A stretch of DNA of 28,869 nt from a virus: positions 1 through 28,869 of IMG/VR virus record IMGVR_UViG_3300033145_001542; one strand, given 5' to 3'. The first letter of the stretch is position 1. Every line of letters starts with the position of its first letter. Of the stretch, positions 4,980-24,748 are shown piece after piece. Below the pieces are notes generated by a model. That model was given only the letters and a program-made list of their open reading frames with translations. It was not told the DNA's origin and did not search any database. The translations under genes and the position numbers were made by a program.

Positions 4980-5837
4980 CTATTTACCTCCTAACAAAGA
5001 GGCTCCAATCCCGGCAGCCCCACCTAACACAGCCCCAAGAGGGCCACCCAAAGCGGTTCCGCTTGCCAGATACCCGCCAAGCCCTGCTCCTACCGCTCCT
5101 CCACCCAGGGCTGAGGCCGTACCTGACCCTTGGGTTGGTGTTGTTACCCCCTGTGAATAAGTGCCACCCATAAGGCCCGGGAGAGACTTGTACGGGTACT
5201 GGATTGCTTCTTGTTCCAATCCCCATTGTGTCATCTGATTAGCATAATCCTGTTGTGTTTTATCATACTCTGCTGCCCATCCAGTTTTCATCGCTGGCTG
5301 TGTCATTTGCCATGCCTGTAACCCAACGTTCTGTCCTGCCTTAGAGTAAAATTCGCCTAACGCTCTTTCTCCCGTTCCAGAATAACCGCCTCTTGCAGAA
5401 CCGAGCTGGCCGCTACCCCCCATCTTTTCCATCATTTGACCTGCCGCTTCGTTCCACGGTGCCCACAGACCTTCTTTAACCTCTGGTGAAATTCCACCCC
5501 ACCATTGCTTACTCGGCATCATACTTTCTGTGCTTGGTATCTGGTAATCAGCCGCAGGCGGCGCACCTACATCCCAAACTTGCTGCCCCCCTGGCTGTGC
5601 CGGGGTGGCCGGAGCACCCCACCACCCTGGTTGCGCTGGGGTTCCCAGAGCAGATCGAGACATGCGCCTTATAAGTGGGATTACTTCACGATAAACGGCT
5701 GCCTGCTCTGGCGATTGGGTATATTCTGTTTTTGTGCCACCACCCTTACATTCGTCTACAGGGCCATCATATTCGTAAGAATCTTCTTCGATTATTTCCC
5801 CGTCAGAGTTCCATACTACCTTAGTATATACTTTCAT
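4980..5837 (-). CDS. Putative internal virion protein with C-terminal glycine zipper, 285 aa
   Basis: Residues 1-25 (MKVYTKVVWNSDGEIIEEDS) form a short acidic beta segment. Residues 60-100 are rich in Pro, Gly, Ala and Trp with an APATPAQPG-type repeat. Residues 130-215 are helical and glutamine-rich. The last 50 residues are an alanine/glycine-zipper stretch (GLGGYLASGTALGGPLGAVL and on) able to insert in a membrane. Such glycine-zipper tails occur in podovirus proteins that leave the capsid and form the DNA channel through the envelope. AAGGAG lies 8 bases before ATG 5837, which overlaps the previous stop as ATGA. Confidence 0.65.
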   Translation of the reverse strand: MKVYTKVVWNSDGEIIEEDSYEYDGPVDECKGGGTKTEYTQSPEQAAVYREVIPLIRRMSRSALGTPAQPGWWGAPATPAQPGGQQVWDVGAPPAADYQIPSTESMMPSKQWWGGISPEVKEGLWAPWNEAAGQMMEKMGGSGQLGSARGGYSGTGERALGEFYSKAGQNVGLQAWQMTQPAMKTGWAAEYDKTQQDYANQMTQWGLEQEAIQYPYKSLPGLMGGTYSQGVTTPTQGSGTASALGGGAVGAGLGGYLASGTALGGPLGAVLGGAAGIGASLLGGK

Positions 5838-6304
5838 CCAGTATCTCCTTTCGGCCGCTTCCTACCAATGAAGTTGATAACACCACTTTTTTCAATATCA
5901 TAACCCTTTTCCCCAACCAGCTTTCTGAATAACCTATAGATTGTTTCATTAATCGTGTCCCCCTCATAAAGTGGAGCATGATTTTTTTCACCGAACCTTG
6001 CAAACTCGTCCAGTAATAAAGATATAGCCTTTTGATCTTTTGTCCAGGAATGTATAAAATCACAATACACTGTTCCAACATGTGGAAGCCCACGGACAAG
6101 CCAATGAGCAAAGGCAACAGGTTTGTTCTTATCCATAGCGACCCAGAACTCAGAAAGGTTGCCGCCGAATTGAATAGCGTTTACAATGTAAGAATAAAAG
6201 CTCTCATACCCAATACCCTGCACAGAGATTTTCTTAACAAAGGCATCGAGCTTTGGCCCTATCTGCCCTAACCATAACGGGTTCGTAATCTTGATTACCT
6301 TCAT
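5834..6304 (-). CDS. GNAT-like acetyltransferase-fold protein, 156 aa
   Basis: The start is taken at ATG 6304 (MKVIKITNPLWLGQ), which has AAGGGG about 10 bases upstream; a longer frame from 6370 adds an unlikely hydrophobic/lysine leader. The order FWVAMDKNKPVAFAHW, then an acidic or cysteine-containing strand, then a helix ISLLLDEFARFGEKN, a strand with LYEGDTIN, and LVGEKGYDIEKSG matches the GNAT fold. The usual Q/RxxGxG/A acetyl-CoA loop is degenerate, so activity is doubtful. GNAT-like proteins next to ejection genes are known in T7-like podoviruses (gp13 position). It may act in virion morphogenesis rather than catalysis. Confidence 0.55.
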   Translation of the reverse strand: MKVIKITNPLWLGQIGPKLDAFVKKISVQGIGYESFYSYIVNAIQFGGNLSEFWVAMDKNKPVAFAHWLVRGLPHVGTVYCDFIHSWTKDQKAISLLLDEFARFGEKNHAPLYEGDTINETIYRLFRKLVGEKGYDIEKSGVINFIGRKRPKGDTG

Positions 6305-7939: not shown

Positions 7940-8164
7940 TTATGTCATATCCCCTACTTCAACCCAAGCACTTGCGTTTCGTATCATAAGGATGTCCGTA
8001 TCACTATCATAATAAATATTCCCTTCTGTTGTATCATCACACGAAGCTCTCGGAACAAATCTTAAACTGTGAAACGATGGATATTTTAGAAATTCGTATA
8101 ACTCGACACACCATTCCTTAAGTTCTCTTATGTCTTCTGTTTCCGGTGGCGGTCGTAAATCCAT
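7940..8164 (-). CDS. Small fibre-associated protein, 74 aa
   Basis: MDLRPPPETEDIRELKEWCV forms a short helix, followed by EGNIYYDSDTDILMIRNASA, the familiar beta-hairpin pattern of phage fibre trimers (EGxxYYDxxxxxLxxxN). The ATG at 8164 overlaps the TGA stop of the tail-hub gene (TGATG). Its place between the hub and a fibre gene suggests an adaptor joining fibre and tail. That is inference from neighbourhood; only the hairpin motif is seen. Confidence 0.6.
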   Translation of the reverse strand: MDLRPPPETEDIRELKEWCVELYEFLKYPSFHSLRFVPRASCDDTTEGNIYYDSDTDILMIRNASAWVEVGDMT

Positions 8165-9768
8165 CAGGCATCACCCTGTAAATCATACTTAAATATTATT
8201 TTGCTGACCTCATATTTTTCATCTTTTAGATCAGTTCCAAATTTAATCTGGTGATATCTCGCGCTATTGTTTGTATGTATCACAGGTCTGTCGGGGCTGC
8301 TGTGAGAAAGAGAAGGAAGGCTGGCCCATGAAGCGGCAAGCACTTCACCAACTGTATCTCCACCACGGTGAGACACATCTATTGAATAATCCCCGGAAAG
8401 CCCCAAATCAAACCAGATTTCTTTCAAGAGTTTTTTTACTTTACCGTCACCGAAATCTAAGATGGGTTCTATCCTGTAGCTGTCCAGGTTAGACCCCGCC
8501 AATGCTTCAGCCGTATGATAGTACAAGTGCCCGTCTGTATTGGCATACGCGAGCCGATCCCTCATTGATGTGTAATATGCCCACGTCTGTGTCCCCGCGT
8601 CCGTCCACACTGCATCAGCCCCGCCCAACTCCGTAACAAGATCATTCCATGTAAAACCAGTATACATACGCCAGTTATCCACATAACGCATCGTCTTGTC
8701 TTCAAACCGCCACTGTCCTGTGTCTATATTATAAAACCATAATTGATTAAAGATTGAGCCTCCTCCTATTGGAACAGTCCATACAGCCTCACGGGTTAAC
8801 GGAACAAATGCCCCCACAATAAGATTGTAATAATCGCTATTGATAGTGTTTATATCGGCTTCAATATTATCACTTATGGGCCTTCCACCGTATGGGAACT
8901 GGGTGCCTCCCCTGTATTCGCAGAATCCGTAATTTCGGTTAAATAACAAATGCCTGTCGCCAAGATTCACAACATTATGGTGGTTGACAGACCCTTGCTG
9001 TGGCACAACAGTATATAATTTAAACGGAGTTGTGTAACTGGGGAAATAAACCAACTCCTGTATTGACCCTTCACAATACAAATAGCACTTGTTATATCCC
9101 ATTGTCGCACCACCAACAAGGCTGTCATCGTTCGGTATGTAGAGCTGGTTTGTAGCCGGAAAGTTTAAACTTGTAATCGCGGTTGTAGGCCAATCAGTTG
9201 ACCATCTGACTATAATATCACCATTGGTTTCTGTGGTATAAAGTCCGATCACCCTCCTTTGGAATGAAAGGTGGTATCTATATTTATATTCTGTTCCTGA
9301 AGCGCATAATTTAGACAGGTTTGCATCACCATTTTTCCATTTATAAGGTGTGTGTTCCCCCCTGTCTGTGAATACCGCGTAAGAACCAATCTGGATAATG
9401 CTGTATAAATCCACATCATCAGTGGCAAAAGCAGTTGAACCGGAATCCTCTATTTCTACAGGATCAAGAGCGGAATCGTAATAATATATATTCCCGTTGT
9501 CTACAAACAAGTGGTCTCTATTTGAACCATCGAACAATTCAAACAAACCTTGACATTTAGTAGCGGCCGCAGTTGCAGAATTAGACCATTGTGTATAACC
9601 GTAGGATTTTGAACAGGCACCACGTTTACGAGACGTATCAAAGTTGATGCCGCCTGTGTCATGCGTTAAAGCGACCCTGTCTCCAATAAATTTAAACAGA
9701 GAGGCATGATTCGCAGGCACGTCTGTTTTGCGTCCTAAAATCGGTATGATCGTAAATTCTTGCATCAT
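8164..9768 (-). CDS. P22 gp10-like tail hub / packaged DNA stabilization protein, 534 aa
   Basis: A beta-rich protein with repeated strand motifs spaced like propeller blades (DHLFVDNGNIYYYDSA, YAVFTDRGEHTPYKWKNGD, GDRHLLFNRNYGFCEYRGG, LAYANTDGHLYYHT). It directly follows the adaptor gene with an ATGA overlap, the same order as P22 gp4 then gp10. The final 100 residues (PILDFGDGKVKKLLKEIWFD, then SKIIFKYD) match the C-terminal sandwich common to such hub proteins. It would plug the portal vertex and carry the fibres. Length is somewhat above the 472 residues of P22 gp10. The assignment rests on order and fold pattern. Confidence 0.75.
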   Translation of the reverse strand: MMQEFTIIPILGRKTDVPANHASLFKFIGDRVALTHDTGGINFDTSRKRGACSKSYGYTQWSNSATAAATKCQGLFELFDGSNRDHLFVDNGNIYYYDSALDPVEIEDSGSTAFATDDVDLYSIIQIGSYAVFTDRGEHTPYKWKNGDANLSKLCASGTEYKYRYHLSFQRRVIGLYTTETNGDIIVRWSTDWPTTAITSLNFPATNQLYIPNDDSLVGGATMGYNKCYLYCEGSIQELVYFPSYTTPFKLYTVVPQQGSVNHHNVVNLGDRHLLFNRNYGFCEYRGGTQFPYGGRPISDNIEADINTINSDYYNLIVGAFVPLTREAVWTVPIGGGSIFNQLWFYNIDTGQWRFEDKTMRYVDNWRMYTGFTWNDLVTELGGADAVWTDAGTQTWAYYTSMRDRLAYANTDGHLYYHTAEALAGSNLDSYRIEPILDFGDGKVKKLLKEIWFDLGLSGDYSIDVSHRGGDTVGEVLAASWASLPSLSHSSPDRPVIHTNNSARYHQIKFGTDLKDEKYEVSKIIFKYDLQGDA

Positions 9769-10469
9769 TTCACATTATGCCAGTTACGGGCCATGTAGTT
9801 CATAGCGGCCCATTTCTTTTTACCATCCCCACGCTTGCTCTGGGCCTTTCCATACTCCCACTCGGACTTATATGCTCCGGCTGCATTCCATTCCTGAAGC
9901 CGCATAAAAGCTTTTGAGGTTGCATAGTCGCACACCCTAAACCGCATCAATTCAGGCAAGTAGGAGATGTCAGTAGCGGTTGAATCGTCACCTGTGCGTT
10001 GATACTCCAACTCTAACCGATATACAGCATCAGCAGGCGTTTGGATCCACAGTTCCCTATCTTTAATTGTATAATACACAGGGGTTGAATTAGAGCTTCC
10101 AGCAACATCAGGATAAGCAGTGTCAAAGGTAGTAGCGTCCATAAAATCAAGGCGCTTGTTTTGGGTCAGGTCTCTCAATACCGTACCGCCACCACCAAAG
10201 TCCACAGGCAAAGCATAGCGGTATGTCCCTGCTACTGTATCCGCATACTTAAACGCCCTCCGCCATGAAAACCCATAACTGTCTTGCAGCTCCTGCTTGC
10301 CCCTGATAAGCCAGTTCTGGACTTCTGTGGTAGAAGGTGTTGTTGTTGCCGACAGTGTTCCTCTGTTGATGTTATTCTCAACCTGTGTCTGGCAATCAGC
10401 AATAGTGCCTAAAGTCCCAGCCGTAAACGCTACTGCATCTTGAGCTGTCCATGTCGTTGTAAGTGCCAT
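9765..10469 (-). CDS. Head-tail adaptor (P22 gp4 / gp6-like connector), 234 aa
   Basis: Mostly helical. VQNWLIRGKQELQDSYGFSW near residues 50-70 followed by YRYALPVDF and ELWIQTPADAVYRLELEYQR is the classic arrangement of podovirus adaptors: N-terminal helices, then a strand where a 'p.df' turn precedes a beta pair. The C-terminal helix with LMRFRVCDYATSKAFMRLQE and EYGKAQSKRGDGKKKW docks on the portal. Start ATG 10469 overlaps the previous stop as TAATG. The tail hub follows with a 4-base overlap. It completes the neck between portal and hub. Confidence 0.75.
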   Translation of the reverse strand: MALTTTWTAQDAVAFTAGTLGTIADCQTQVENNINRGTLSATTTPSTTEVQNWLIRGKQELQDSYGFSWRRAFKYADTVAGTYRYALPVDFGGGGTVLRDLTQNKRLDFMDATTFDTAYPDVAGSSNSTPVYYTIKDRELWIQTPADAVYRLELEYQRTGDDSTATDISYLPELMRFRVCDYATSKAFMRLQEWNAAGAYKSEWEYGKAQSKRGDGKKKWAAMNYMARNWHNVK

Positions 10470-11449
10470 TAACCTTCATCCAGTACAAAACGTTCATATA
10501 GTTTTGCCAGTTGTTTGTCTATTTTTCCTTCTTTATCTAAATGCTCCAAGGATAATTTAATAACCCTCAACATATCACTGGAGATTATATATTCTTTAGG
10601 TGGGATACCGTCTTCAATGAATTTAACGGTCTTCCCTGTGCCATCAGTATGTAACGCAACCGCCTTTTCTTCCTCCAGCGTGAACGATAATTCGTCCTGG
10701 AACTCCTCAATAAGCTTCATTGTCTTGTATCTGGCTGATTTCGGCATGTGATGTACCAAGAGCATTCTTTCCAATGAAGACAGTTTCGTTGTTTTTGAAC
10801 TGTTAAAATCAAGCACCTTTGCCGTGCGTTCCGGCTGGATTTTTATCTTTTCCTGAGACATCACCTGTTCATTGCGATAGGCATACATCTTCCCATCCAT
10901 CGTCTTAAGAAGTTCACAGTTAGGGCCATAAAGATGGACTTCAATACCTCTTCCAAGGGCAATACCCAGCCAGAAAGTCGTCGAGGGTTTCTCATAGATA
11001 TACTTTGATCCCTGGCTCATATTCAACCCATAGGTGTTGATAACATCATACCCTTGATAAATCGCCAGGGCGATCATATAATCCAATGAGTTGCCAAAAT
11101 AATCAGTTCCAAAAAACTGTCTTACTTCATTAAGCGGATACTCCAAAGATGATGGTATATCGTCAAATTTTCTTGTGCAATAGACAGGAAGTCCTCTTTC
11201 ATTGCATATCTTTGTAACAAGGTTGTTGATATCCTCTATTGTATCCGGGGGAAGCCCGGTCGCCTTTTGACAAGCCTCCCTGCCTTCTTTCGTTGAGAAA
11301 TCATGCTTATAAAGCAACTCTCTGTCCATGAAAAAACACAGATCAATATTTTCATCTTTATAGATGGAGTCGTTGACCCCCCAAAGTTCCATTTCCGGGG
11401 GGGCTAACTCCCAACCCTCTCCCTTTGCAACAAGCCCAACCTCTTTCAT
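10469..11449 (-). CDS. MptE/DUF115-related nucleotide-binding-type protein, 326 aa
   Basis: The N-terminus MKEVGLVAKGEGWELAPPEM with ELWGVND is a Rossmann-like start found in many phage proteins related to DUF115/MptE (Maf-like, linked to flagellin or lipid glycosylation in bacteria). LDYMIALAIYQGYDVINTYG and TTFWLGIALGRGIEVHLYGP are the second conserved block: a strand-helix pair with a glycine-rich turn. The last 120 residues are helical and charged. It closes the tailoring cassette just before the adaptor. A role in sugar transfer to virion or host glycans is inferred; no catalytic residues are certain. AGGGGGA precedes the ATG. Confidence 0.55.
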   Translation of the reverse strand: MKEVGLVAKGEGWELAPPEMELWGVNDSIYKDENIDLCFFMDRELLYKHDFSTKEGREACQKATGLPPDTIEDINNLVTKICNERGLPVYCTRKFDDIPSSLEYPLNEVRQFFGTDYFGNSLDYMIALAIYQGYDVINTYGLNMSQGSKYIYEKPSTTFWLGIALGRGIEVHLYGPNCELLKTMDGKMYAYRNEQVMSQEKIKIQPERTAKVLDFNSSKTTKLSSLERMLLVHHMPKSARYKTMKLIEEFQDELSFTLEEEKAVALHTDGTGKTVKFIEDGIPPKEYIISSDMLRVIKLSLEHLDKEGKIDKQLAKLYERFVLDEG

Positions 11450-11472
11450 AACATCCCCCTTTTTTTATGCTA

Positions 11473-12015
11473 TTATGCAAAACTCAAAGCCGAACTTGTA
11501 ACTATCTGGCCTGACGGTAAAACAACATTAACATAAGTAGCTGCTGCCGCAGTGTCCACCAAATCAATATCGAAATCGCCGTCCGCCTCTGTGATGCACT
11601 TGGCATACACGTTAGCTACATGCTCCGTTATGATTGTACCGTCTGTTCCAACCGCAAACCCGCCACTGGGCGCTGCGTCTACCGTTTGACCGGCAGAATC
11701 CGAACTTAAATAAAGATCGAATGCAACCGCTTCAGCAACAGCAGTCGAGTTATCACCCTGGTTTATCTGAACAGCTACGTTAATTGTGCTTGATGTCGCT
11801 GTAAAAGCACCTACCGTAATAGCAGCATCATAAACCTTGACCGAGGGAGCATTCAGTTTAATCCCTGTATCAGCCACCAACGTCAAATATCCGTCAGCGT
11901 CAGACTGGATATAAATAGCGCTGTCTCTAAAATGACACTTCTCATTAGTCTGGAAACCTCCCTTCACACATGCTTTCTGAATCGGGCCGCCTTCATTTAT
12001 ATCTATAATACCCAT
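11473..12015 (-). CDS. Probable capsid decoration/structural protein, 180 aa
   Basis: CHFRDSAIYIQSDADGYLTL with VADTGIKLNAPSV is a segment I recall from phage virion proteins encoded near capsid genes. The rest is alanine/threonine-rich beta sequence (AITVGAFTATSSTINVAVQI, then FDIDLVDTAAAATYVNVVLP). Lysines are few and there are no enzyme motifs. AAAGGAGG lies 6 bases before ATG 12015. It is the only clearly structural gene inside the tailoring cassette, so it is a candidate acceptor for the modifications made by the enzymes around it (inference). Confidence 0.6.
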   Translation of the reverse strand: MGIIDINEGGPIQKACVKGGFQTNEKCHFRDSAIYIQSDADGYLTLVADTGIKLNAPSVKVYDAAITVGAFTATSSTINVAVQINQGDNSTAVAEAVAFDLYLSSDSAGQTVDAAPSGGFAVGTDGTIITEHVANVYAKCITEADGDFDIDLVDTAAAATYVNVVLPSGQIVTSSALSFA

Positions 12016-12029
12016 TGTAACCTCCTTTA

Positions 12030-12941
12030 TTAATCTTCCTTTACTTCAAATTTTAAAGCGTTAGTCCTGTTTATTAAACATTCTGGATCCCTTGTTGAGT
12101 ACAACAATGGTGACTCCGGGTACTCGTTAAGCTGATCGCATTTCTCGCAAACCAAGCCCTTCAAATCACCGCTGCTGTGCCTCTCCCGAATGGCATTGTA
12201 TTGATCTCCTTTTACGATATCCTCAATCTTATTCCTGCGAGTGCATCCCACTGTTAACTTTGCGTTATAGTCAAAGCAACATACCATCATTTTCCCATCA
12301 CAGTTTATCTGTAACGGCCCTGTAAACGGCCTTCCGCAAGTTTTCTTTTTCCGTTCCACCTTGCGAAAATCCTTACCGTCAGTCCAGTTGTGAGGTTTCC
12401 ATATCTCAAAATAATCAACCCGGTCTTCCCAAAGCCTTGCGATTTCTTCTATTGTCTCTCCGTGCATGGGATTAATGACTGTGCTTGTCTCACATTGTCC
12501 ATTAAAAAGTGTTTTATTTAACTCAAGAAAATTAATAATATTGCGAAACGTTGTACTAAAATTCAATCCCCTGTGAACTTTATTATAGGTGCCTTTTAAC
12601 CCATGTACCGAGAACTGAATTCGTGATAATCCAGCTATTAAAAGAGACATGGCTAACCCACGATTTAATCGTGAAGCATTAGTGGTTATGTTGGTCTTTA
12701 GCCCGTGTGCAGTACAGCAATTCACCTTCCAGGCAATATCCCTGTCCATAAGAGATTCACCAAACCCGAACACAGAAATAATTTTCGCACCAAGATCATG
12801 CGCTTGCTCAACCAGTTTTTCAAAGTGCTGATTGTCCATAGTCATTTTAGGACGTGTGAATTTATCTCTCGGACAAATGATACAGTTTGAATTACACAAT
12901 GTCGATGTTTCTATCCTAACTTCCGGGTTTAAAAGCCTCAC
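12030..12941 (-). CDS. Radical SAM enzyme with SPASM-like C-terminal domain, 303 aa
   Basis: The iron-sulfur cluster motif is CNSNCIIC at residues 16-23 (CxxxCxxC). VFGFGESLMD after about 60 residues is the GGE-like strand, and NITTNASRL and RIQFSVHGL are standard strands of the partial barrel. The C-terminus holds CGRPFTGPLQINCDGKMMVC then CCFDYN and LVCEKCDQ, the SPASM/Twitch pattern for extra clusters (Cys at about 210, 223, 230-231 and the final CxxC). Start is GTG 12941, overlapping the previous TGA (GTGA) with AAGGGGGG upstream. Such enzymes modify peptides or sugars; in polysaccharide loci they sit beside methyl- and sulfotransferases, as here. The substrate is unknown. Confidence 0.85.
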   Translation of the reverse strand: MRLLNPEVRIETSTLCNSNCIICPRDKFTRPKMTMDNQHFEKLVEQAHDLGAKIISVFGFGESLMDRDIAWKVNCCTAHGLKTNITTNASRLNRGLAMSLLIAGLSRIQFSVHGLKGTYNKVHRGLNFSTTFRNIINFLELNKTLFNGQCETSTVINPMHGETIEEIARLWEDRVDYFEIWKPHNWTDGKDFRKVERKKKTCGRPFTGPLQINCDGKMMVCCFDYNAKLTVGCTRRNKIEDIVKGDQYNAIRERHSSGDLKGLVCEKCDQLNEYPESPLLYSTRDPECLINRTNALKFEVKED

Positions 12942-13267
12942 TTGCCGTTCCCCCCTTTATATGTTTGAACAATCTCTACTATGTCATCAACAGATTTCCT
13001 GTAAATATCAATGATTTCATCATAATAATGCTTTAACACAGGCAAGAACATATGATGAAACAAGTCTCCCCATTCCGGGCTGTACGCCAGCAGAACCTTT
13101 CTTCCTGTCAGAGCGAACGGATTAATGTGTTGCCCGCTTAATACGATACTGACATCACATTGCTTCGGTTCGTTGTTCAACTCAATCCCTTTTTTATTGA
13201 GTGCCCTTACAAGATGCTGCCACCCCTCAAAAGACGAATTATTTAAGAATACCTCAACACTTTGCAT
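12938..13267 (-). CDS. Conserved-looking protein of the tailoring cassette, 109 aa
   Basis: Alpha/beta protein: VEVFLNNSSFEGWQHLVRAL, NKKGIEL, CDVSIVLSGQHI, GRKVLLAYSPEWG, then helices to TYKGGNGK. The alternation resembles the N-terminal half of a GT-B glycosyltransferase Rossmann domain, but at 109 residues it lacks the C-terminal half and cannot be an active enzyme of that kind alone. It overlaps the methyltransferase by 14 bases and the radical SAM gene by 4, so the three are translated together. It may be a partner subunit or a remnant. Not recognised further. Confidence 0.55.
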   Translation of the reverse strand: MQSVEVFLNNSSFEGWQHLVRALNKKGIELNNEPKQCDVSIVLSGQHINPFALTGRKVLLAYSPEWGDLFHHMFLPVLKHYYDEIIDIYRKSVDDIVEIVQTYKGGNGK

Positions 13268-13874
13268 GAATCAGCAAACCATCCCCCCATGTTTGTGAAA
13301 TCATTTTATTACCTGCAACCAATGCCAGCTTTGGAGCAAACTGAGCATTTACTATTTCAAACCTGAGTTCCTTAAACAACTCATACCACCACGGCAGTTC
13401 ATGCAAGTTTATATGAGTATTGTATGGTGGATCAGGTCTGTCCGCTATCGTGAACAAGACCTCCCGTGACACCCTTTTGGCTTCCTTTAAAATAGGCTTC
13501 GATAATTCTTCCGGGACATGTTCTAAAACTTCACAGCAAATCAAGATATCAAACTCTTCGTCTTCAAATGGCAAGTCCTGAGCAAAAGCTGTTACCTGTC
13601 TGTCTTTTAATAATTCGATCTCTGGATGATACAACTCTACTGAATAACAATCATGCCCCTCAATCAAATACTTAACGACCTCATACCCATTGCCAGCACC
13701 GATGCAGAGTATTTTTTTCTTGATATTTTCTGATCTCCAAAACTGAGTGAGATGTGTTGCAATCCGTAACCCACGACTCACAAAAGGGCTTCCGTAAGTG
13801 AAGTTCTTGTAAATGCCCGTATCTGAGTACAACTCCGTTAGATAATCGTCTGTAACGGAGTTAAAGACTTCCAT
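13254..13874 (-). CDS. SAM-dependent class I methyltransferase, 206 aa
   Basis: Motif I is KILCIGAGNGYEV at residues 54-66 (GxGxG-like). Acidic motif II is CYSVELYHPEIELL, motif III is AFAQDLPFEDEEFDILIC with the usual 'lPFeDeeFDiv' sequence, and VLEHVPEEL follows as post-motif. This is the UbiE/MT11 type (Methyltransf_11/25). GGGAAAAT and a GAGGG site precede ATG 13874, which overlaps the sulfotransferase C-terminus by 37 bases. The acceptor is not predictable. In the cassette context it is probably a sugar or another small group on a glycan. High confidence for the fold, low for the substrate. Confidence 0.85.
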   Translation of the reverse strand: MEVFNSVTDDYLTELYSDTGIYKNFTYGSPFVSRGLRIATHLTQFWRSENIKKKILCIGAGNGYEVVKYLIEGHDCYSVELYHPEIELLKDRQVTAFAQDLPFEDEEFDILICCEVLEHVPEELSKPILKEAKRVSREVLFTIADRPDPPYNTHINLHELPWWYELFKELRFEIVNAQFAPKLALVAGNKMISQTWGDGLLIHAKC

Positions 13875-14635
13875 ATTTTCCCTCTATCAAATTTATCCTG
13901 ATCAATTTCCTTCCCTAAGAAATCCGATATTTTTGCGAAAGTTTTTTTGGTGTTATTCACAAGATCATGATGCCAAACTTCGATATGATTAACCATCGGC
14001 ATTACCCGTTCCAGTTCTGCCTCTTGTTGCTCCGCTATTTCCAATGCCCTCTTAACAGTTAGCAAACCCCTGTATCCTCTCGGCACACCCTTAAGGGCAG
14101 GAACCTTAAACCTGACAAGCGACTTTGCCGCTTCCATCAAATTTCGCCTTGTCCATACATATTTAGCGTTTTTAAAAGATTTGTACCTGTTTATCCATGC
14201 TTCAAGAGCGAATTGGCACATCGGGTCTTTAACCACTTTTAGTTTCTGGTAAGAAAAAACCTTCATTGCTTCTTCCATTAAAGCTATAAGGTATTCATCA
14301 AGAGGTTTTTCCGTTATAGCAAAATCCGTGCCATACAAGATATCACCATGCCCAATATCATGGGGAGTCCCTGGTTGCAGTGCTTTAGCGCCCAGATGTT
14401 TAGCAATAAGGTAATTAACAATCCTCCAGCTTTGATGTTCAGAAGGTGGCGTTCCTAATAAACGAGCTGAGAATAACTCCCGAAATCCGTTTGTGCCTCT
14501 AATACATTGGAAAAGGATGGTTGTGCCTGTCCTGGCAAGCCCCGGCAAAACAACTAAATCTAACTCATCCTTTCTGTCGGCTACTCTTGCAAGGCACTTA
14601 TTAACATAATCGACATTATATACGGCTAAAGGCAT
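13838..14635 (-). CDS. PAPS-dependent sulfotransferase, 265 aa
   Basis: GLARTGTT (residues 32-39) is the 5'-phosphosulfate-binding loop typical of carbohydrate sulfotransferases (Sulfotransfer_1/3). YVWTRRNLMEAAKSLVRFK near residues 155-173 is the 3'-phosphate-binding region with the conserved R...S. KLKVVKDPM fits the strand between them. Start is taken at ATG 14635; a TTG at 14644, overlapping the previous TAA, would add three residues. Neither has a clear ribosome site. The enzyme would move sulfate from host PAPS onto a sugar hydroxyl. Phage sulfotransferases are uncommon, so its presence beside glycan-type enzymes is notable. Confidence 0.82.
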   Translation of the reverse strand: MPLAVYNVDYVNKCLARVADRKDELDLVVLPGLARTGTTILFQCIRGTNGFRELFSARLLGTPPSEHQSWRIVNYLIAKHLGAKALQPGTPHDIGHGDILYGTDFAITEKPLDEYLIALMEEAMKVFSYQKLKVVKDPMCQFALEAWINRYKSFKNAKYVWTRRNLMEAAKSLVRFKVPALKGVPRGYRGLLTVKRALEIAEQQEAELERVMPMVNHIEVWHHDLVNNTKKTFAKISDFLGKEIDQDKFDRGKIWKSLTPLQTII

Positions 14636-14644
14636 AATTTTCAA

Positions 14645-14827
14645 TTATGACGCATCAGGCAGTTTAGGGAAAATAAGTCTTTTCTTTTTAACCTGCTTCC
14701 CTCTTGCCTGCATCCCCTTTCGTATGATCTCATTGAATTTTTTCTCGCATTCAGGGCATATGACCCTATTCTCTCCTGTGTAAATCAAAATAGATTGCTT
14801 ACAATGCTTACAAATCCCGTTGTCCAT
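14645..14827 (-). CDS. Small zinc-ribbon protein, 60 aa
   Basis: CKHCKQS (from residue 6) and CPECEKKFNE (from residue 24) make a four-cysteine zinc ribbon, followed by a basic tail (RGKQVKKKRLIFP). AAAGGGG is about 8 bases before ATG 14827. It stands between the 72-aa CxxxC protein and the sulfotransferase, with tight spacing on both sides. The zinc-ribbon pattern resembles the proteins at 6925-7179 and 21171-21428. Its job is unknown; nucleic-acid or protein binding is possible. Confidence 0.65.
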   Translation of the reverse strand: MDNGICKHCKQSILIYTGENRVICPECEKKFNEIIRKGMQARGKQVKKKRLIFPKLPDAS

Positions 14828-14830
14828 TTT

Positions 14831-15049
14831 TTAATACCCCTTTCTATCAGACCCGTAGGATTCCTGTACGGCACCGTATGTATCCCCTATGGGCTTGTTG
14901 CTATGGTGTCCGTAATTAGAAACAAAATTCTTCCTGAACGGATTTACAAAAGGCTGCTCTGGTTGGTGATTCTTGCAATATCCATTCTTTCTGGCAAAAT
15001 TATAACACCCTCGTGTGCTGCACTGTCTGGTTTTTTCGCCCCTTGGCAT
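14831..15049 (-). CDS. Small cysteine/histidine-knuckle protein, 72 aa
   Basis: CSTRGCYNFARKNGYCKNH (residues 10-28) is a CxxxxC...CxxH knuckle, like the short 'C..pGC.....yC..H' proteins seen in many phages. The rest is polar with an asparagine/serine-rich C-terminus. The start at 15049 has GGAGG 10 bases upstream. The first 106 bases lie inside the 3' end of the preceding MptE-like gene in another frame, an unusually long overlap for this genome. The stop is just before the next gene. The knuckle makes it a credible gene despite the overlap. Confidence 0.6.
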   Translation of the reverse strand: MPRGEKTRQCSTRGCYNFARKNGYCKNHQPEQPFVNPFRKNFVSNYGHHSNKPIGDTYGAVQESYGSDRKGY

Positions 15050-16179
15050 AATAAGTTAGCCTCCAAAAATTCATTTACTGCCTGCATTAACGTTCTGGTT
15101 CTCCAATAGCTCGGTACAACCTCGTCAAGTAAATACCAGTTTTCAGACTTCGGCATTTCCAGAAGGTTGTGTGAACGAGCCATCACGCCACAAATACCTC
15201 CCTCCGTGCAATTATAGTAAAAAAACGGCAGTTCCGAGGTTGACCATGCAATCACGTGAGTTTCAATCCATGTTTTATAGATAAACAACTGCCTGGATGT
15301 TCCCATTACCTTGAAGTTAACGATCTGTCTTCCTTCACATAAAGGGCTCTCGTGCATCTCATATCCCATCCACGCGAACTCGTCTTTCGCTTCATCCACC
15401 CTTGATATGTTGGTTGAGTAATCTTTATCGGCATAAAAAAACTTTCGTCTTTTGTCTATATCCTTATCGTGTGAGAAACTGAGATCATTCCCAAGCGCAA
15501 AGAAGACCCTTGAATGAAAAATCTTTAATGCCAGCATGAAACAAGCGTTCCCTATGTTCCCTCCCTGACCTACAGAGTGAATCTCCCCGTTCTCACCCGT
15601 CTCCTTTTCAAATATCTTCAAATACTTCGGGCTGTGGGGAATATAAAAGCATACATGTCGGCCCTGCTTTGTCCAATCTTTTACAATCTTATGATCAGCG
15701 TACATGGTCGCTAAAAGGATCGCCCGTTTGCCTAACTTCGGGATATCAGTACAAAGCTGATCGTATACGTGACCGCCACCATCGCCCAGCATTACAAAAT
15801 GAGGGAAGATCCCCATCTTTAACAATGGCTTGAACTGGTGGTTCGATGCTACAATAATGAACGGCTGGTCTTTTATCTTAAACTGGACATTGAAGTCATA
15901 AAGCTTCTTTAAGTCTTTTTTATTCTTATCAAAACTTGGCCCTGCACCGACAAATACAGTCGCCTTCCCTTTACCGAAACCAAGAAACGGCTTTGTTACA
16001 GACCCGTGTTCAGGATATATGTGTTTCAGGTTTGCCCTGAAGTTCTTTTCCCACTTCTCAGACATCCTGTCTCCGGTCATCTTGCCAGAGGCTTCGACAT
16101 ACTCCCACATCCCCCTTGGTATAATCCTTTCAAGATCTTTATTATCGCTTATAAGTTCATCAAAGCTTGGATTCTTCAT
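14944..16179 (-). CDS. MptE/DUF115-like protein (Maf-type glycan modification), 411 aa
   Basis: ATVFVGAGPSFDKNKKDLKK (residues 73-92) is the signature of the MptE/DUF115 family: a nucleotide-binding 'GaGPSld.n...L' turn. IIVASNHQFKPLLKMGIFPH, GGNIGNACFMLALKIFHSRV and FALGNDLSFS follow as in that family. Relatives include MptE and the bacterial Maf proteins that transfer sialic or pseudaminic-type sugars to flagellin. AAGGGGAGT precedes ATG 16179. The last 35 or so codons overlap the next gene and look unlike the rest, so the ancestral stop may have been lost (see findings). Activity on virion or host surface sugars is inferred. Confidence 0.72.
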   Translation of the reverse strand: MKNPSFDELISDNKDLERIIPRGMWEYVEASGKMTGDRMSEKWEKNFRANLKHIYPEHGSVTKPFLGFGKGKATVFVGAGPSFDKNKKDLKKLYDFNVQFKIKDQPFIIVASNHQFKPLLKMGIFPHFVMLGDGGGHVYDQLCTDIPKLGKRAILLATMYADHKIVKDWTKQGRHVCFYIPHSPKYLKIFEKETGENGEIHSVGQGGNIGNACFMLALKIFHSRVFFALGNDLSFSHDKDIDKRRKFFYADKDYSTNISRVDEAKDEFAWMGYEMHESPLCEGRQIVNFKVMGTSRQLFIYKTWIETHVIAWSTSELPFFYYNCTEGGICGVMARSHNLLEMPKSENWYLLDEVVPSYWRTRTLMQAVNEFLEANLLCQGAKKPDSAAHEGVIILPERMDIARITNQSSLL

Positions 16180-16280: not shown

Positions 16281-16805
16281 TTAGTGGCATTTACTCGCTA
16301 ATTTTGCCCTAAGATACTCAATTCCATTTTGTGCCTTATCTTTCTTTATAATTAAATAAGGTTCTACCGTTTCTAATATCTCTAAAACATCATTCACGGC
16401 AGTAGCTCTAAATATATATACCTGTTTATGATGTTCCCTATCACCTCGTCTTTGGCGATAAGAACCTCCCCTATCTAATTTTTTCAACCAATCAAATAAA
16501 GGAACATCAGTTGTTGTGATGGTTATACACCACGATCCCAAAGAGTTTTTTGTGCCATCGTGGATACACCCTTCGCCATCAATAATGCCAGCAAGATAGG
16601 CAATTTCAGTGTCTTGCCAGTTTTCCAAACCTAATCTGACTGGTGTATAAGTTGTCGCATAACCCATTTTGCTCGCTTTTATATAACATCCCCATTTTCC
16701 ATGCCTATCAATAAGATGGTGCGGGATATTAAGCTCATGGGCAATCCGATTGTCATAACATTCTTCTAATTCTACTAACTCTGGTTCTGTCCATCTATTT
16801 CTCAT
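16281..16805 (-). CDS. LAGLIDADG homing endonuclease, free-standing, 174 aa
   Basis: YLAGIIDGEGCI at residues 70-81 is the LAGLIDADG motif with both acidic residues. It is followed by a strand (GSWCITITTTDVPLFDWLKK), a basic stretch SYRQRRGDREHHKQVYIFRA and a C-terminal helix, typical of a single-motif domain that acts as a dimer. Residues 1-60 are a separate N-terminal part with RWTEPELVELEECYDN, like an HTH/SANT-type DNA-binding segment. GGAGG is 5 bases before ATG 16805. It is a selfish mobile gene sitting just after the capsid gene, not inside an intron or intein that I can see. Confidence 0.85.
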   Translation of the reverse strand: MRNRWTEPELVELEECYDNRIAHELNIPHHLIDRHGKWGCYIKASKMGYATTYTPVRLGLENWQDTEIAYLAGIIDGEGCIHDGTKNSLGSWCITITTTDVPLFDWLKKLDRGGSYRQRRGDREHHKQVYIFRATAVNDVLEILETVEPYLIIKKDKAQNGIEYLRAKLASKCH

Positions 16806-16935: not shown

Positions 16936-18123
16936 TTAACTGAGATCCATGAACATTCCGTGCCAACCTTTATTGTAACCACGCATAATCATGGTGAACT
17001 CACTGATCAACTGCCATCTATCATAATCACCAACTTTTGCCAGTTTTTCTACAATCAGTTTACGGTTTTTCTTGGCTTTCAATGCAATATTGCTTGTATC
17101 AAGCACAAAGCCGAGGTTCACTGGAAATTTACGCATTGGAACAAGCTGGATCTCGATACCAACATCTGTCAAATACTTCGTGATCCAAAGCCCGCCCATT
17201 CGTGCATCAGGCTCGGTACGAACCTTGTTCTTGTCAAAGTCTGTAAATTTCCTGATCTGCTTTTTTTCCGCCACAAACACATCAGGCGTTCCACCATTAT
17301 CCCAACATTCCGCCACCAAATCATTAAAGGTCGATTCGGTAAGAGTTGTAGTAGTTGCATCAACCCAGGAATGAGCGCTGTAGTCGTCCAGAAAATCATG
17401 AGCACCGGTCATAAAACTTGCGATCGTGCTTGTTCTCGCCTGGTTTTTGGACATCAGGACTGCTCTTTCTCTCTCAAACTGCATCTCAAGAAGTCTCATC
17501 GCAAGTTGATGATTAGGCTCAGTATCAATGGCGTGCATATCCGTATTCGCCATAGAACCCGATATCTTGATATCTTTCCGCAGAATAGAGAAAATATTAC
17601 TTAAAACAACCCTTTGTCTGGTTGTATCCGGGAACGGGTCACTCGCTTCATTAGCATAGTGCCCAACAACGTACAGTTTGGAACTCGCCTCGATTGCTTC
17701 ACCCGGTCCGGCCAGCATAGAAATACCAACCGTACCTGCTGACGTACTACCGACCGTAGTCACAACATAAAAGCACTCGCCAGAAGCATTACCGGAAAGA
17801 TTAACGTATAATAGTGTACCCGCCTGAACCTGTTTAATTGTCTCCGAAGTTGTAAGCCCTGTACCACTTGTGGTGCAAGTAAACTCAGCCGCACCGGACG
17901 CAATCGCAGCACTTGTCTGAACATACCCGAATCCAAGATGTTCAGAGATCCATTCGACCTGTAAAGCGCCCGAATCATCTTCCCACTTTATTTTATTCAA
18001 CAAGGGAGTATCACGATGCGCCCATTGTTCCAACAGTTGAGAAACATCAAGCTTATCAGTTCCACTACCAATCAACTTTGAATGGTAAGAACCACTTGCT
18101 ACTGCATGCTCTGTTATTGCCAT
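16936..18123 (-). CDS. Major capsid protein, SU10/DUF5309 type (HK97 fold), 395 aa
   Basis: HRDTPLLNKIKWEDDSGALQ near residues 36-55, then VEWISEHLG, is the N-terminal arm pattern of the SU10-like major head protein family ('tPf...ig...a.....W..'). The middle has PFPDTTRQRVVLSNIFSILR (extended loop and spine helix), MRLLEMQFERERAVLMSKNQ (long helix), then GGTPDVFVAEKKQIRKFTDF and a C-terminal pair of strands around IQLVPMRKFPVNLGFVLDTS. Length fits the family. The start has GGAGGAGAAA upstream and the scaffold gene ends 14 bases before it. This is the main building block of the head shell. Confidence 0.88.
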   Translation of the reverse strand: MAITEHAVASGSYHSKLIGSGTDKLDVSQLLEQWAHRDTPLLNKIKWEDDSGALQVEWISEHLGFGYVQTSAAIASGAAEFTCTTSGTGLTTSETIKQVQAGTLLYVNLSGNASGECFYVVTTVGSTSAGTVGISMLAGPGEAIEASSKLYVVGHYANEASDPFPDTTRQRVVLSNIFSILRKDIKISGSMANTDMHAIDTEPNHQLAMRLLEMQFERERAVLMSKNQARTSTIASFMTGAHDFLDDYSAHSWVDATTTTLTESTFNDLVAECWDNGGTPDVFVAEKKQIRKFTDFDKNKVRTEPDARMGGLWITKYLTDVGIEIQLVPMRKFPVNLGFVLDTSNIALKAKKNRKLIVEKLAKVGDYDRWQLISEFTMIMRGYNKGWHGMFMDLS

Positions 18124-19244: not shown

Positions 19245-21158
19245 TTATCTTAACAACCCCTTTGCAACATCCCTCATGGCACTTCTGCCCGCTTCCTTCT
19301 CAGATAACTTATCCTGCATCTGCGCCTCAAGCATCTTAGCCTGGACGGCTTGCTGTACTGACTGCTGCTGTTCCTGTAAAACCTGCTGGGGTGATTTTAA
19401 ATATTTGTCCGAGTCATGGAAATCCATCAACTCCATGATAGCTTTCATAAATTCATGATGCTGCAGGTAAGGTGAATCCTGCCACATTTGAGCATACTGA
19501 ACCAACTGTTGTGCCCTGAACTGCTTGCCCATGGCAGGTTCCATAGACGTGTACCTTGCGGTAAAATCATAATTAGGGTGGACATCCCCCGCAAACATCG
19601 GGGTAAACTGCTGCCCCTGATTGGTCGTGATCCGGGTTTCGAACTTATCCGGTAAATGCCACGTGTTCAACAGCATCATGTGTTTTAACATCGGCTGAAA
19701 TCCCTGATAATCCATCCCCATTAAAAGCAGTTTAGTTCTTGCTTCGCCCATCGCTTGAAGCGAATACATTGTTCCAGGCGCTTCTTGCCGGGTGGGAGTC
19801 GCCCCCATTCCGTAGCGGTGCATTCCTGAAATATCTTCAATCGTACTTTTAAAAAACTCTTCCTGCTCCCTAAACACACTACTCTGAGTATCAGGCACCA
19901 CTAACGGCTGAACCGTCGGTCTCCCGTTTTCCATGCCGCCAGGGACAAGACCATAAGGTTTCCAGATAAGAGATTCAGGCGGAATATCAGAATCTTCCTC
20001 GACCAAGAGCATGGAGTTAACCGACATAAGAGCATTCTGATAACGAGTGTTGGCAAGCGTGTCATACTGTTCCTGGATGGTTTTCCCAAGCCGGATAATG
20101 CCCATGTCCCAGAATAATTCCGGGTGCATGTACGCGCCAATAGCGAAAAAAGGCTTCTTACCATACGTATTTTTTTGGAGCAATAAAAGCGATTTGTAGT
20201 TTCCTATATGGACAATCGCCTCGCTTTCCTTCCCCTTTATTTTAACACCACTTCCGACCTCATAGGGGACATCATCTTCAGGGAAGATGTACCTTCCATA
20301 CCCCTCGATAACATCAACTTCAGGGGAAAGTCGTTCATCCTCCATACTGGCGATATCAGTGTATCCCTCTATACCAAGGCTTTTTACATATGCCTCTACA
20401 CTATCATCCTCGTATTGCGTACCGGAGGTTGATTTACCGGAACTGCTTGAATATCCTAAATCCTTTATGTTCCTATAAACACCCTCTCGTTGTTTCTGCT
20501 TCAAGTATTCAACCGTTCTACGATACACACAAAACACAAACGGCATCTGTTGTATGTTTTTATAATGGGGGTGGGGAACGAACAACTTGTTATGTAAAAC
20601 CTCGGCATAGGGCGCATCATAAACGACCTGAGAGTCCTGGACAAGCGTTGAACGAGTATCTATCCCCACCATTCGGCCGTTTTCAAACATTGGAACCGGG
20701 ATCGTTATCCTGCGTGGGGAAATGCGTTCTTCTTTACGCCAATATACCTTTGCGATACCCTTTCCCCATGACAGGGCATTACACATCCACTGGAAATTAA
20801 ACAGATAACTGCTTCCATCAGCGTCTATATCATTCAGGGTTTCAAGCTGGTAATTCAGCAGACCTTGAACCCTCGGCGCTCTTTCCACATCATCTCTTGA
20901 ACGGGGTCTTACGCTGACAAGATCGTGAGTACCGCCCTGGTACAACTGCTCCAGCATCCGAGACAACATGGTCATTATGCGAGGGAGCAATTGGGGGAAT
21001 GTCATGTTGTACGCAAGGGGGTACTCACTCTCGTTCCGATATCCAGTATAGTACTCAAGATCGTCATCATACTGTTCACGATAACTTTGGTTCAAGTCCC
21101 ATTGATGCTTATAAGCTTTTAAAAAAAACTTAAGTGCCTCTTCTTCTTTAATATTCAT
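19245..21158 (-). CDS. Portal protein, P22/SU10-like, 637 aa
   Basis: NQSYREQYDDDLEYYTGYRN near residue 25 is a portal-like start. FPQLLPRIMTMLSRMLEQLY (residues 54-73) and FQWMCNALSWGKGIAKVYWR (about 121-140) belong to the clip and wing region. TIQEQYDTLANTRYQNALMS is the long helix next to the tunnel, and SLIWKPYGLVPGG is the conserved strand of the crown/stem. The C-terminus is a glutamine-rich coiled coil (LQEQQQSVQQAVQAKMLEAQ). Size is close to other podovirus portals. AGAGGA lies 8 bases before ATG 21158. It forms the ring through which DNA enters and leaves. Confidence 0.88.
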   Translation of the reverse strand: MNIKEEEALKFFLKAYKHQWDLNQSYREQYDDDLEYYTGYRNESEYPLAYNMTFPQLLPRIMTMLSRMLEQLYQGGTHDLVSVRPRSRDDVERAPRVQGLLNYQLETLNDIDADGSSYLFNFQWMCNALSWGKGIAKVYWRKEERISPRRITIPVPMFENGRMVGIDTRSTLVQDSQVVYDAPYAEVLHNKLFVPHPHYKNIQQMPFVFCVYRRTVEYLKQKQREGVYRNIKDLGYSSSSGKSTSGTQYEDDSVEAYVKSLGIEGYTDIASMEDERLSPEVDVIEGYGRYIFPEDDVPYEVGSGVKIKGKESEAIVHIGNYKSLLLLQKNTYGKKPFFAIGAYMHPELFWDMGIIRLGKTIQEQYDTLANTRYQNALMSVNSMLLVEEDSDIPPESLIWKPYGLVPGGMENGRPTVQPLVVPDTQSSVFREQEEFFKSTIEDISGMHRYGMGATPTRQEAPGTMYSLQAMGEARTKLLLMGMDYQGFQPMLKHMMLLNTWHLPDKFETRITTNQGQQFTPMFAGDVHPNYDFTARYTSMEPAMGKQFRAQQLVQYAQMWQDSPYLQHHEFMKAIMELMDFHDSDKYLKSPQQVLQEQQQSVQQAVQAKMLEAQMQDKLSEKEAGRSAMRDVAKGLLR

Positions 21159-23360: not shown

Positions 23361-24101
23361 CTATATCTGGTGCATATAATGGTGCATTGCAATCGGAATT
23401 GAAAGCCCCCCTACTACTTCTCCCACCCGTGCAGAATAATCCCCGTGCTCGATGCCCCAAGGGGAAGTGTCAACCCCGTCTACCAACAAACTCGTTTTTA
23501 TGGTTGCACTGAACTGGCCGGACTGAAGATATAACTTATCGGCTTCACTGCCACTCCACGGGGTGTTTGTGCCGTCATAAGAAATGCCAACCGCATAAAT
23601 ATCAACACCGCTTATATCCAAGCTCGTTTTTAGCGTGGCACTAAATTGGCCTGACTGGAGGAATAACTTTGAGTCATTATAAGCACACCACGGAGTATTC
23701 GTACCATCCCAAGAGATACCATGAGAGGCATTGTCAATTGCACCTATCGCAAGGCTCGTTTTCAGAGTAGAGCTGAACTGGCCTGACTGAAGGTATAGTT
23801 TATCATCAGTCATGCCACTCCACGGAGTATTCGTGCCATCACAAGAAATGTCCGAAGGATATGTATCAATTCCACCAACAGCTAAACTGGTTTTCAGGGT
23901 GGCACTAAACTGACCGGATTGGAGATATAATTTATCAGCTTCATCTCCGACCCATGGAGTGTTTGTCCCATCCCAAGCGATACCACTTGTGGCAGCATCA
24001 ACTCCGCCTACCGCCAGACTGGTTTTAAGGGTAACACTAAACTGACCGGATTGGAGGTAGAGTTTGTCAGCTTCGTTTCCGCACCACAGAGTATCTGCCA
24101 T
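23361..24101 (-). CDS. Tandem-repeat protein, five 44-aa units, propeller-like, 246 aa
   Basis: Five copies of a 44-residue unit start at residues 12, 56, 100, 144 and 188: DKLYLQSGQFSATLKTSLAV, then GGIDTYP, then WDGTNTPW. Each would give a four-strand blade, so a five-bladed beta-propeller or a repeated adhesin is likely. The last 40 residues diverge. ATG 24101 overlaps the glycosyltransferase stop as TAATG. Similar 'WDGTNTPW' repeats occur in uncultured phages beside fibre genes. Recent duplication is seen in the DNA as 132-bp repeats. It may bind a sugar or a host receptor. Confidence 0.65.
   Translation of the reverse strand: MADTLWCGNEADKLYLQSGQFSVTLKTSLAVGGVDAATSGIAWDGTNTPWVGDEADKLYLQSGQFSATLKTSLAVGGIDTYPSDISCDGTNTPWSGMTDDKLYLQSGQFSSTLKTSLAIGAIDNASHGISWDGTNTPWCAYNDSKLFLQSGQFSATLKTSLDISGVDIYAVGISYDGTNTPWSGSEADKLYLQSGQFSATIKTSLLVDGVDTSPWGIEHGDYSARVGEVVGGLSIPIAMHHYMHQI
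23442..24068 (-). repeat. 132-bp tandem coding repeats (five copies)
   Basis: The gene for the 246-aa protein carries five units of about 132 bp, corresponding to 44 codons. The copies keep long runs of nearly identical DNA around the LYLQSGQFS and DGTNTPW codons, while the linker codons (position about 25-32 of each unit) differ. This array could change copy number by recombination or slippage. Copy 4 differs most in its first residues (SKLFLQS), and copy 5 is followed by non-repeat sequence. Confidence 0.75.
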
Positions 24102-24748
24102 TATTCGTATAAATTCCTGTAAGCATTAGAGATTTCAATCAAACTGTTTTCTGAAAAATGGTCACATGGGTAGCCAAAATGAGCGTGTATTTCAAAACCA
24201 TTATCTCTTAGTCTTTCACAAAAACTAATATCGTTCCCTTTATTTACTGTTCCATCTTGATTTAACTTTCTTTCAAACGGGGCTTTTCGCATGTTTTCAT
24301 TTTCAAACACTCTTCGAGCAATCAAGAAACAACCTGTTCCTATTGCCGATACTTTTTGTAGCCCCCTCTTTTCCGGGTACTCCCTGTAAGCATCAACTTT
24401 TTTATCATAAGCATACACGTTTTCATAAATCGGCCTGTCACCTTTTCTCTGGTTTTTCCCCTCGTAGTGCCATATAGGGGTAGGTAAACCGATTATGTCT
24501 TTATCCAGCTCAATCAAATCCAAAGGGTTTTTTAATGGCGGATTATCAGCATCAATATTTAACCAGAAATCGTAATTACCAGCCATGAAATCATTAACAA
24601 TGTGATGCAGATTGTTTTCATAAGGTTTATGAGACGGCATTATAATGTTCAATCTGTATCTGCCGTCCTGCTGAAGAAGCAGTACCTTATGAACAACATG
24701 TTTATGCAACCAATGTTGATTTGGCAACGAGACTAAGATTGATTTCAT
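24101..24748 (-). CDS. Small GT-A type glycosyltransferase, 215 aa
   Basis: MKSILVSLPNQHWLHKHVVH begins a Rossmann-like strand-helix, and NYDFWLNIDADNPPLKNP holds the DxD motif (DAD, residues 66-68) that binds the metal and sugar nucleotide. GTGCFLIARRVFEN (about 130-143) and GNDISFCERLRDNGFEIH with a late HFGYPCDH are the acceptor-site and catalytic ED-like features of family-2-like enzymes. It overlaps the 173-aa gene by 4 bases and is coupled to the 44-aa repeat gene. It may glycosylate the repeat or fibre proteins next to it, or host surface sugars. The donor sugar is unknown. Confidence 0.72.
   Translation of the reverse strand: MKSILVSLPNQHWLHKHVVHKVLLLQQDGRYRLNIIMPSHKPYENNLHHIVNDFMAGNYDFWLNIDADNPPLKNPLDLIELDKDIIGLPTPIWHYEGKNQRKGDRPIYENVYAYDKKVDAYREYPEKRGLQKVSAIGTGCFLIARRVFENENMRKAPFERKLNQDGTVNKGNDISFCERLRDNGFEIHAHFGYPCDHFSENSLIEISNAYRNLYE

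Follow-up and report, generated by a model that had tools for sequence, protein, structure and literature searches.

What are a sulfotransferase, a methyltransferase and a radical S-adenosylmethionine (SAM) enzyme doing among the virion genes of a phage? The question is raised by the virus record IMGVR_UViG_3300033145_001542 (28,869 bases, analysed whole and called the window here), a fragment of a short-tailed, SU10-like phage genome containing its late genes, in which an island of such enzymes lies between the major capsid gene and the adaptor (neck) gene. Comparison with related phages reveals a fixed frame of genes around an exchangeable slot, and we lean towards reading the island as a modular system that builds a modified sugar and attaches it to virion proteins. 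That the island carries out sugar chemistry is well supported. That the sugar goes to the virion rather than to the host envelope is something we infer, and the position of the island, its linkage to head genes and the Maf-like fold of its attachment enzyme candidate are consistent with such a target. The genes of the island and its flanks are as follows.

16936-18123, minus strand: SU10_MCP major capsid protein, bounding the island on the left (PF17236, E 7e-42)
16281-16805, minus strand: LAGLIDADG/HNH-type endonuclease between the capsid and Maf-like genes (phrog_5046, E 8e-20)
14944-16179, minus strand: Maf/MptE-like protein of 411 aa, core gene (PF01973, E 2e-19)
14831-15049, minus strand: Zn1, small zinc-ribbon-like protein, at the same place in relatives
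14645-14827, minus strand: Zn2, small CxxC...CxxC protein with counterparts in relatives
13838-14644, minus strand: 3'-phosphoadenosine 5'-phosphosulfate (PAPS)-type sulfotransferase, variable slot (Sulfotransfer_3, PF13469, E 5e-9)
13254-13874, minus strand: class I SAM-dependent methyltransferase, variable slot (Methyltransf_11, PF08241, E 8e-11)
12938-13267, minus strand: p109, 109 aa, with homologues in the relatives L010 and L023
12030-12941, minus strand: core radical SAM enzyme whose C-terminal cluster domain is of twitch type (PF04055, E 5e-15; SPASM, PF13186, E 3e-8)
11473-12015, minus strand: putative head decoration protein, from its position and a homologue in L028
10469-11449, minus strand: p326, 326 aa, possible second sugar transferase (homologues in L017 and L028; CstII fold match)
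9765-10469, minus strand: adaptor (neck) protein SU10_adaptor, right flank of the island (PF24175, E 5e-12)

A preliminary description of this DNA had placed a set of overlapping or closely spaced open reading frames on the minus strand between capsid and neck genes, and both the reading frames and their setting were recovered; between the Maf-like and adaptor genes, neighbours overlap or lie no more than 23 nt apart when both zinc genes are counted. Its sulfotransferase, methyltransferase and radical SAM-SPASM assignments were borne out by Pfam scores above cut-off in the window proteins (MptE-like, Sulfotransfer_3, Methyltransf_11 and Radical_SAM plus SPASM), and the overlapping 109-aa protein exists, with no family above cut-off in Pfam or NCBIfam and no solved relative. 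The gene list was incomplete, as the two zinc-ribbon genes, which are conserved in relatives, had been missed. In SU10 the equivalent interval, from the capsid gene to gp11, holds a single immunoglobulin (Ig)-like gene, and in MW202462, which is without the island, small hypothetical proteins and structural genes follow the capsid gene.

The conservation of the arrangement was investigated with relatives found by alignment-guided scans of IMG/VR, together with one GTDB contig, which after removal of three near-duplicate pairs gave 15 lineages, including the window, that span the interval; a single-sequence query with the Maf-like protein against viral contigs had returned no matches. The gene order is capsid, Maf-like, Zn1, Zn2, slot, radical SAM, one or more decoration-type genes and adaptor. 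The Maf/MptE-like gene after the capsid gene, followed by Zn1 and Zn2, was found in all 15 lineages, and the radical SAM gene in 14 of them; on contigs that extend so far, it is immediately followed by one to three genes of decoration type and then the adaptor. L028 is the sole lineage without it, and no radical SAM match was found anywhere in the L028 record. Since the same order recurs in 14 other lineages, whose capsid proteins and that of the window are 34-68% identical, the arrangement is not due to chance. The only GTDB match, L024, is a phage contig of 8 kb that was assigned to a bin of Candidatus Solincola sediminis and may be mis-binned.

The slot, by contrast with this fixed frame, ranges from empty to six enzymes. 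It is empty in L003 and L019, holds a sulfotransferase alone in L013 and L017, a methyltransferase with p109 in L010 and L023, and the sulfotransferase, methyltransferase and p109 together in the window. One or two other methyltransferases occupy it in L011, L015, L032 and L034, two methyltransferases and a sulfotransferase in L012, a family 2 glycosyltransferase (GT2) and a methyltransferase in L024, and three methyltransferases, two GT2 enzymes and a hexapeptide transferase in L009. The exchangeable genes are thus almost all of glycan type, and together with the conserved core (Maf-like, Zn1, Zn2 and radical SAM) this makes a co-located sugar-tailoring pathway, rather than scattered single-gene cargo, well supported.

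A tblastn search of 50,697 phage records gave no match to the Maf-like protein, the sulfotransferase or a glycosyltransferase-like protein encoded at 24101-24748, and the radical SAM enzyme had weak, out-of-context matches only; none of the cultured-phage records searched carries the Maf-like gene or the sulfotransferase. Among open-licence papers, no earlier account of a phage DUF115/MptE-like gene or of a virion-operon sulfotransferase was found.

The first core gene is the proposed glycosyltransferase that would attach the sugar. The window protein scores 70.5 bits against PF01973 (cut-off 34.6), and the family is matched in 18 of the 19 records searched. An AlphaFold model built from a 12-sequence alignment (predicted local distance difference test, pLDDT, 82.8; predicted template-modelling score, pTM, 0.84) has as its first-ranked PDB match the Magnetospirillum Maf structure 5mu5 (E 1.4e-8 over 353 columns). 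Archaeal MptE, a 6-hydroxymethylpterin diphosphokinase, was considered as the closest solved fold and set aside, the archaeal HPPK/MptE structure 8sd5 ranking second (E 7.9e-5). Near folds were also predicted in BFVD for other proteins of uncultured Caudovirales that are named MptE-like for their domain and carry no functional assignment, among them A0A0F7L3H2 (E 9e-15) and A0A6J5PG89 (E 7e-13). Passages of PMC11339370 describe Maf enzymes as O-glycosylating flagellin and the Maf of C. botulinum as able to take 3-deoxy-D-manno-octulosonic acid (Kdo) as donor. The phage protein shares with these enzymes PF01973, which is the central domain in Maf, as well as the closest solved fold; unlike Maf (about 630 aa, acting on flagellin), it is phage-encoded, has 411 aa and lies in a virion operon, so that the three-domain architecture of some 600 or more residues is absent, and its NCBIfam PseD score is 18.5 bits against a cut-off of 670. 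The setting also recalls flagellin glycosylation islands, which adjoin the gene of a self-assembling surface protein and have methyl- and glycosyltransferases alongside, while the phage island further includes a radical SAM enzyme and sulfotransferases.

Pairwise divergence of the Maf-like protein tracks that of the capsid (Mantel rho 0.75) and portal (0.78) proteins (p 0.0005 each), while radical SAM divergence tracks the capsid weakly (rho 0.29), as does adaptor divergence (0.31). These correlations suggest that the Maf-like gene travels with the head genes and that the slot and radical SAM side has been reshuffled, although adjacency on the genome may account for part of the pattern.

The second core enzyme keeps the CX3CX2C motif (C16, C20 and C23) in all lineages that have the gene, together with a PF04055 match above cut-off, which places it in the radical SAM superfamily. 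Its best solved relative is BtrN, a 2-deoxy-scyllo-inosamine dehydrogenase, with a profile match (E 4e-16) that covers the SAM and twitch parts. Cysteines 202, 221, 222, 265 and 268 are invariant in the 14 sequences, and C202, C221 (or C222), C265 and C268 align to the BtrN cysteines for one predicted auxiliary [4Fe-4S] cluster, as expected of a twitch domain; unlike BtrN, the phage enzyme has an adjacent invariant pair, Cys221-Cys222. BtrN oxidises a hydroxyl of a cyclitol (PMC9012708), a sugar-like substrate; the phage enzyme is a distant sequence relative, recognised by profile comparison.

Among the slot enzymes, the sulfotransferase scores 37.1 bits against Sulfotransfer_3 (cut-off 27), and its RTGTT and WTRR...AKS motifs, which bind the 5'- and 3'-phosphates, are kept in the sulfotransferases of four phages, in agreement with PAPS as donor. 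The methyltransferase has copies 44-47% identical in L010 and L023, and p109 is paired with the preceding methyltransferase in every case, in the same order in both of these relatives. Of the small proteins, Zn1 is basic, overlaps the 3' end of the Maf-like gene and ends in an aromatic motif resembling D-x-[FY]-[GP], conserved in a DKFGxER-like form in most of the phages, including L028, which is without the radical SAM gene; this tail may serve in docking. Zn2 has a 49% identical copy in L017 and counterparts in the remaining relatives.

The preliminary label of "capsid-type" for the protein at 11473-12015 found no family support in Pfam, PHROG or NCBIfam; its basis is the position of the gene and a homologue that L028 has in the corresponding position. 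In SU10 this is the place of the Ig-like gene. We infer a putative head decoration protein and a possible acceptor. As for p326, it had been called a second MptE/DUF115-like gene, a claim that held for 14944-16179 and failed for 10469-11449, where no Pfam, PHROG or NCBIfam match was found and where hhalign of the two alignments showed no relation to the Maf-like protein. Its low-confidence model (pLDDT 61) has the sialyltransferase CstII as sole significant PDB match (E 1e-4), and CstII is said in a passage of PMC11339370 to resemble the Maf central domain. With no profile match and a model match to CstII only, p326 would be at best a distant fold relative of the Maf-like protein and possibly a second sugar transferase. 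The Microcystis phage isolate L044 (PP496355.1) encodes at 8908-9711, just upstream of its terminase genes, a p326 relative (27% identity) annotated as a type 11 methyltransferase, which is a possible experimental entry point.

A second group of sugar genes lies near the terminase. The late genes of the window are all on the minus strand, running from terminase through portal, capsid, island and adaptor to a protein at the nozzle position, and the SU10-family portal, capsid and adaptor (PF23899, PF17236 and PF24175), found in this order, mark the phage as SU10-like (Kuravirus-type). The genes outside the island are the following.

25268-26821, minus strand: terminase
24101-24748, minus strand: glycosyltransferase-like protein between terminase and portal (phrog_1574, E 4e-8; weak glycosyltransferase PHROGs)
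19245-21158, minus strand: SU10-type portal protein
8164-9768, minus strand: virion protein at the nozzle position (phrog_3287)

In six records an NAD-dependent epimerase/dehydratase lies upstream of the portal gene, and downstream of the terminase where the contig includes it; those of L009 and L034 score above the equivalog cut-off for GDP-mannose 4,6-dehydratase, and those of L012 and L015 are nearest GDP-fucose synthase, below its cut-off. Their neighbours are a C-methyltransferase (PF08484/PF08421, L009), unnamed proteins of 280-290 aa and a cupin. Just upstream of the terminase, L028 encodes a KdsB-like cytidylyltransferase that passes the equivalog cut-off for CMP-Kdo synthetase (726-1439), and L019 a KdsB-like PF02348 protein (810-1535). 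In both of these lineages the slot of the island between capsid and adaptor is empty. In the window, the protein at 24101-24748 (with the sequence NIDADNPP) lies at this site, which makes plausible the earlier guess that it belongs to the same pathway; the glycosyltransferase assignment itself has only weak PHROG matches behind it. Synthesis of a nonulosonic acid by the phage itself was considered and is not supported, as neither the NeuB nor the NTP_transferase family was found in the records searched.

Taken together, these observations suggest the following scheme. Host enzymes, and in relatives also phage genes near the terminase, would supply the donor sugar. The twitch radical SAM enzyme would oxidise or epimerise a ring hydroxyl, as BtrN does with its cyclitol, and the slot enzymes would sulfate, methylate, acylate or extend the sugar (sulfate and methyl in the window). 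Before or after these modifications, the Maf-like enzyme would transfer the sugar in activated form, perhaps as a CMP-linked ulosonic acid (Kdo, for instance), to Ser or Thr residues of the virion. The likeliest acceptors are the decoration protein encoded nearby and the major capsid protein. Late expression is suggested by the gene order, and each reaction and the identity of the sugar are presumed. The "sulfated, methylated sugar" proposed earlier fits the enzyme set of the window phage, while other members of the group have other combinations; with exchangeable slot enzymes, each phage lineage could bear a different coat.

Several points weigh against this scheme. Ser plus Thr make up 17% of the putative decoration protein, no higher than in the capsid protein (17%), and the decoration-type genes of the lineages belong to several apparently unrelated families, which is odd for one acceptor. 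The Maf match is partial with respect to the 632-residue Maf (TM 0.44/0.30, 14% identity), physical linkage alone could produce the Maf-capsid correlation, and the window, being a fragment, shows no sugar-nucleotide gene. The scheme also leaves p109, Zn1 and Zn2 without a role.

The main rival, unlikely in our judgement and still deserving of serious weight, is that the enzymes remodel the host surface polysaccharide late in infection, with superinfection block or release of progeny from receptors as the outcome. All enzyme types of the island also occur in host envelope loci. The glycosyltransferases of pelagimyophages, in a hypervariable region with radical SAM gain, were read in this way by their authors (PMC7029224), and there too variable sugar and radical SAM genes lie inside a structural region; those phages, however, are myophages, the region is that of the tail fibre, the change is read as one of the host O-chain, and the paper describes no conserved Maf-like/zinc/radical SAM frame. 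None of the cassette proteins has a membrane segment predicted by hydropathy, which sets the island apart from gtr-type serotype conversion, and no flippase-like gene was seen. Moreover, the structure that the core enzyme resembles most in fold belongs to a protein (flagellin) glycosyltransferase, and the island lies within the head-neck gene run, its Maf-like gene co-diverging with capsid and portal.

The radical SAM enzyme might instead act on a protein or peptide, such as Zn1 with its aromatic tail or the adjacent decoration protein, and the sugar enzymes would then be unconnected passengers, a reading that we regard as improbable. SPASM/twitch enzymes often act on peptides, the aromatic C-terminus of Zn1 is conserved, and the radical SAM gene immediately precedes a decoration-type gene in nearly every lineage; against this, L028 retains the Zn1 motif with no radical SAM match in its record, the enzyme has one auxiliary-cluster cysteine set only, as in BtrN, and the slot holds sugar-type enzymes.

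Very doubtful is the accumulation of unrelated single-gene cargo at a permissive head/neck spot, which the preliminary description had named as its own refutation and which the shared order in 14 other lineages disfavours. The slot genes do vary from phage to phage, and in the window the region has also taken up a homing-type endonuclease, but the Maf-like and zinc genes are invariably present and the radical SAM gene nearly so, in fixed order, and the slot contents are chemically coherent and matched at the second site. That endonuclease (16281-16805) has no counterpart at its place in any relative compared and is therefore probably a recent mobile insertion rather than a member of the pathway.

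Finally, although phage glycosyltransferases often modify DNA, a pathway that hypermodifies bases of the phage DNA or adds a sugar to it is scarcely credible given the late-operon position, a core fold like that of protein or sialyl transferases, and the absence of genes of the thymidylate synthase family from the 13 records searched, which are fragments.

Few cases of virion glycosylation are known among tailed phages, and the enzymes behind it are mostly still to be worked out. DNA modification by phage glycosyltransferases is mentioned in PMC12619734, where Freeman et al. 2023 is also cited for glycosylated capsid and tail tube proteins of mycobacteriophages. Like that experimentally reported system, the one predicted here would place glycans on virion proteins, with an enzyme set (Maf-like, radical SAM and sulfotransferase) that differs from the mycobacteriophage one as cited there. 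The island presents a defined, testable set, in which a proposed attachment enzyme is linked to the capsid gene, the radical SAM enzyme has conserved neighbours and the slot comes in natural variants. If our reading is right, phages diversify the chemistry of their coats by exchanging cassettes, which would affect adsorption and host range in nature, and the enzymes could serve as small cytoplasmic tools for protein glycosylation. A broader proposal, which we offer tentatively and hold a little less likely than its opposite, is that a widespread phage group shares a fixed chassis of Maf-like enzyme and radical SAM sugar oxidase with a swappable slot of sulfo-, methyl-, acyl- and glycosyltransferases, giving lineage-specific capsid glycan coats that include sulfated virion sugars.

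Elsewhere in the window, local G+C rises to 0.51 at 5001-6000, against about 0.41 around it, over a 285-aa gene (4980-5837), and Rfam and tRNA scans of the window gave no matches. A 246-aa protein at 23361-24101 consists of about five imperfect repeats of about 45 residues (KLYLQSGQFSATLKTSL...) and is possibly a propeller-like virion protein. A 97-aa protein at 985-1278 has homologues that adjoin the adaptor gene in L011, L009 and L019 or the terminase in L032, and is read as a small structural-type gene that changes place.

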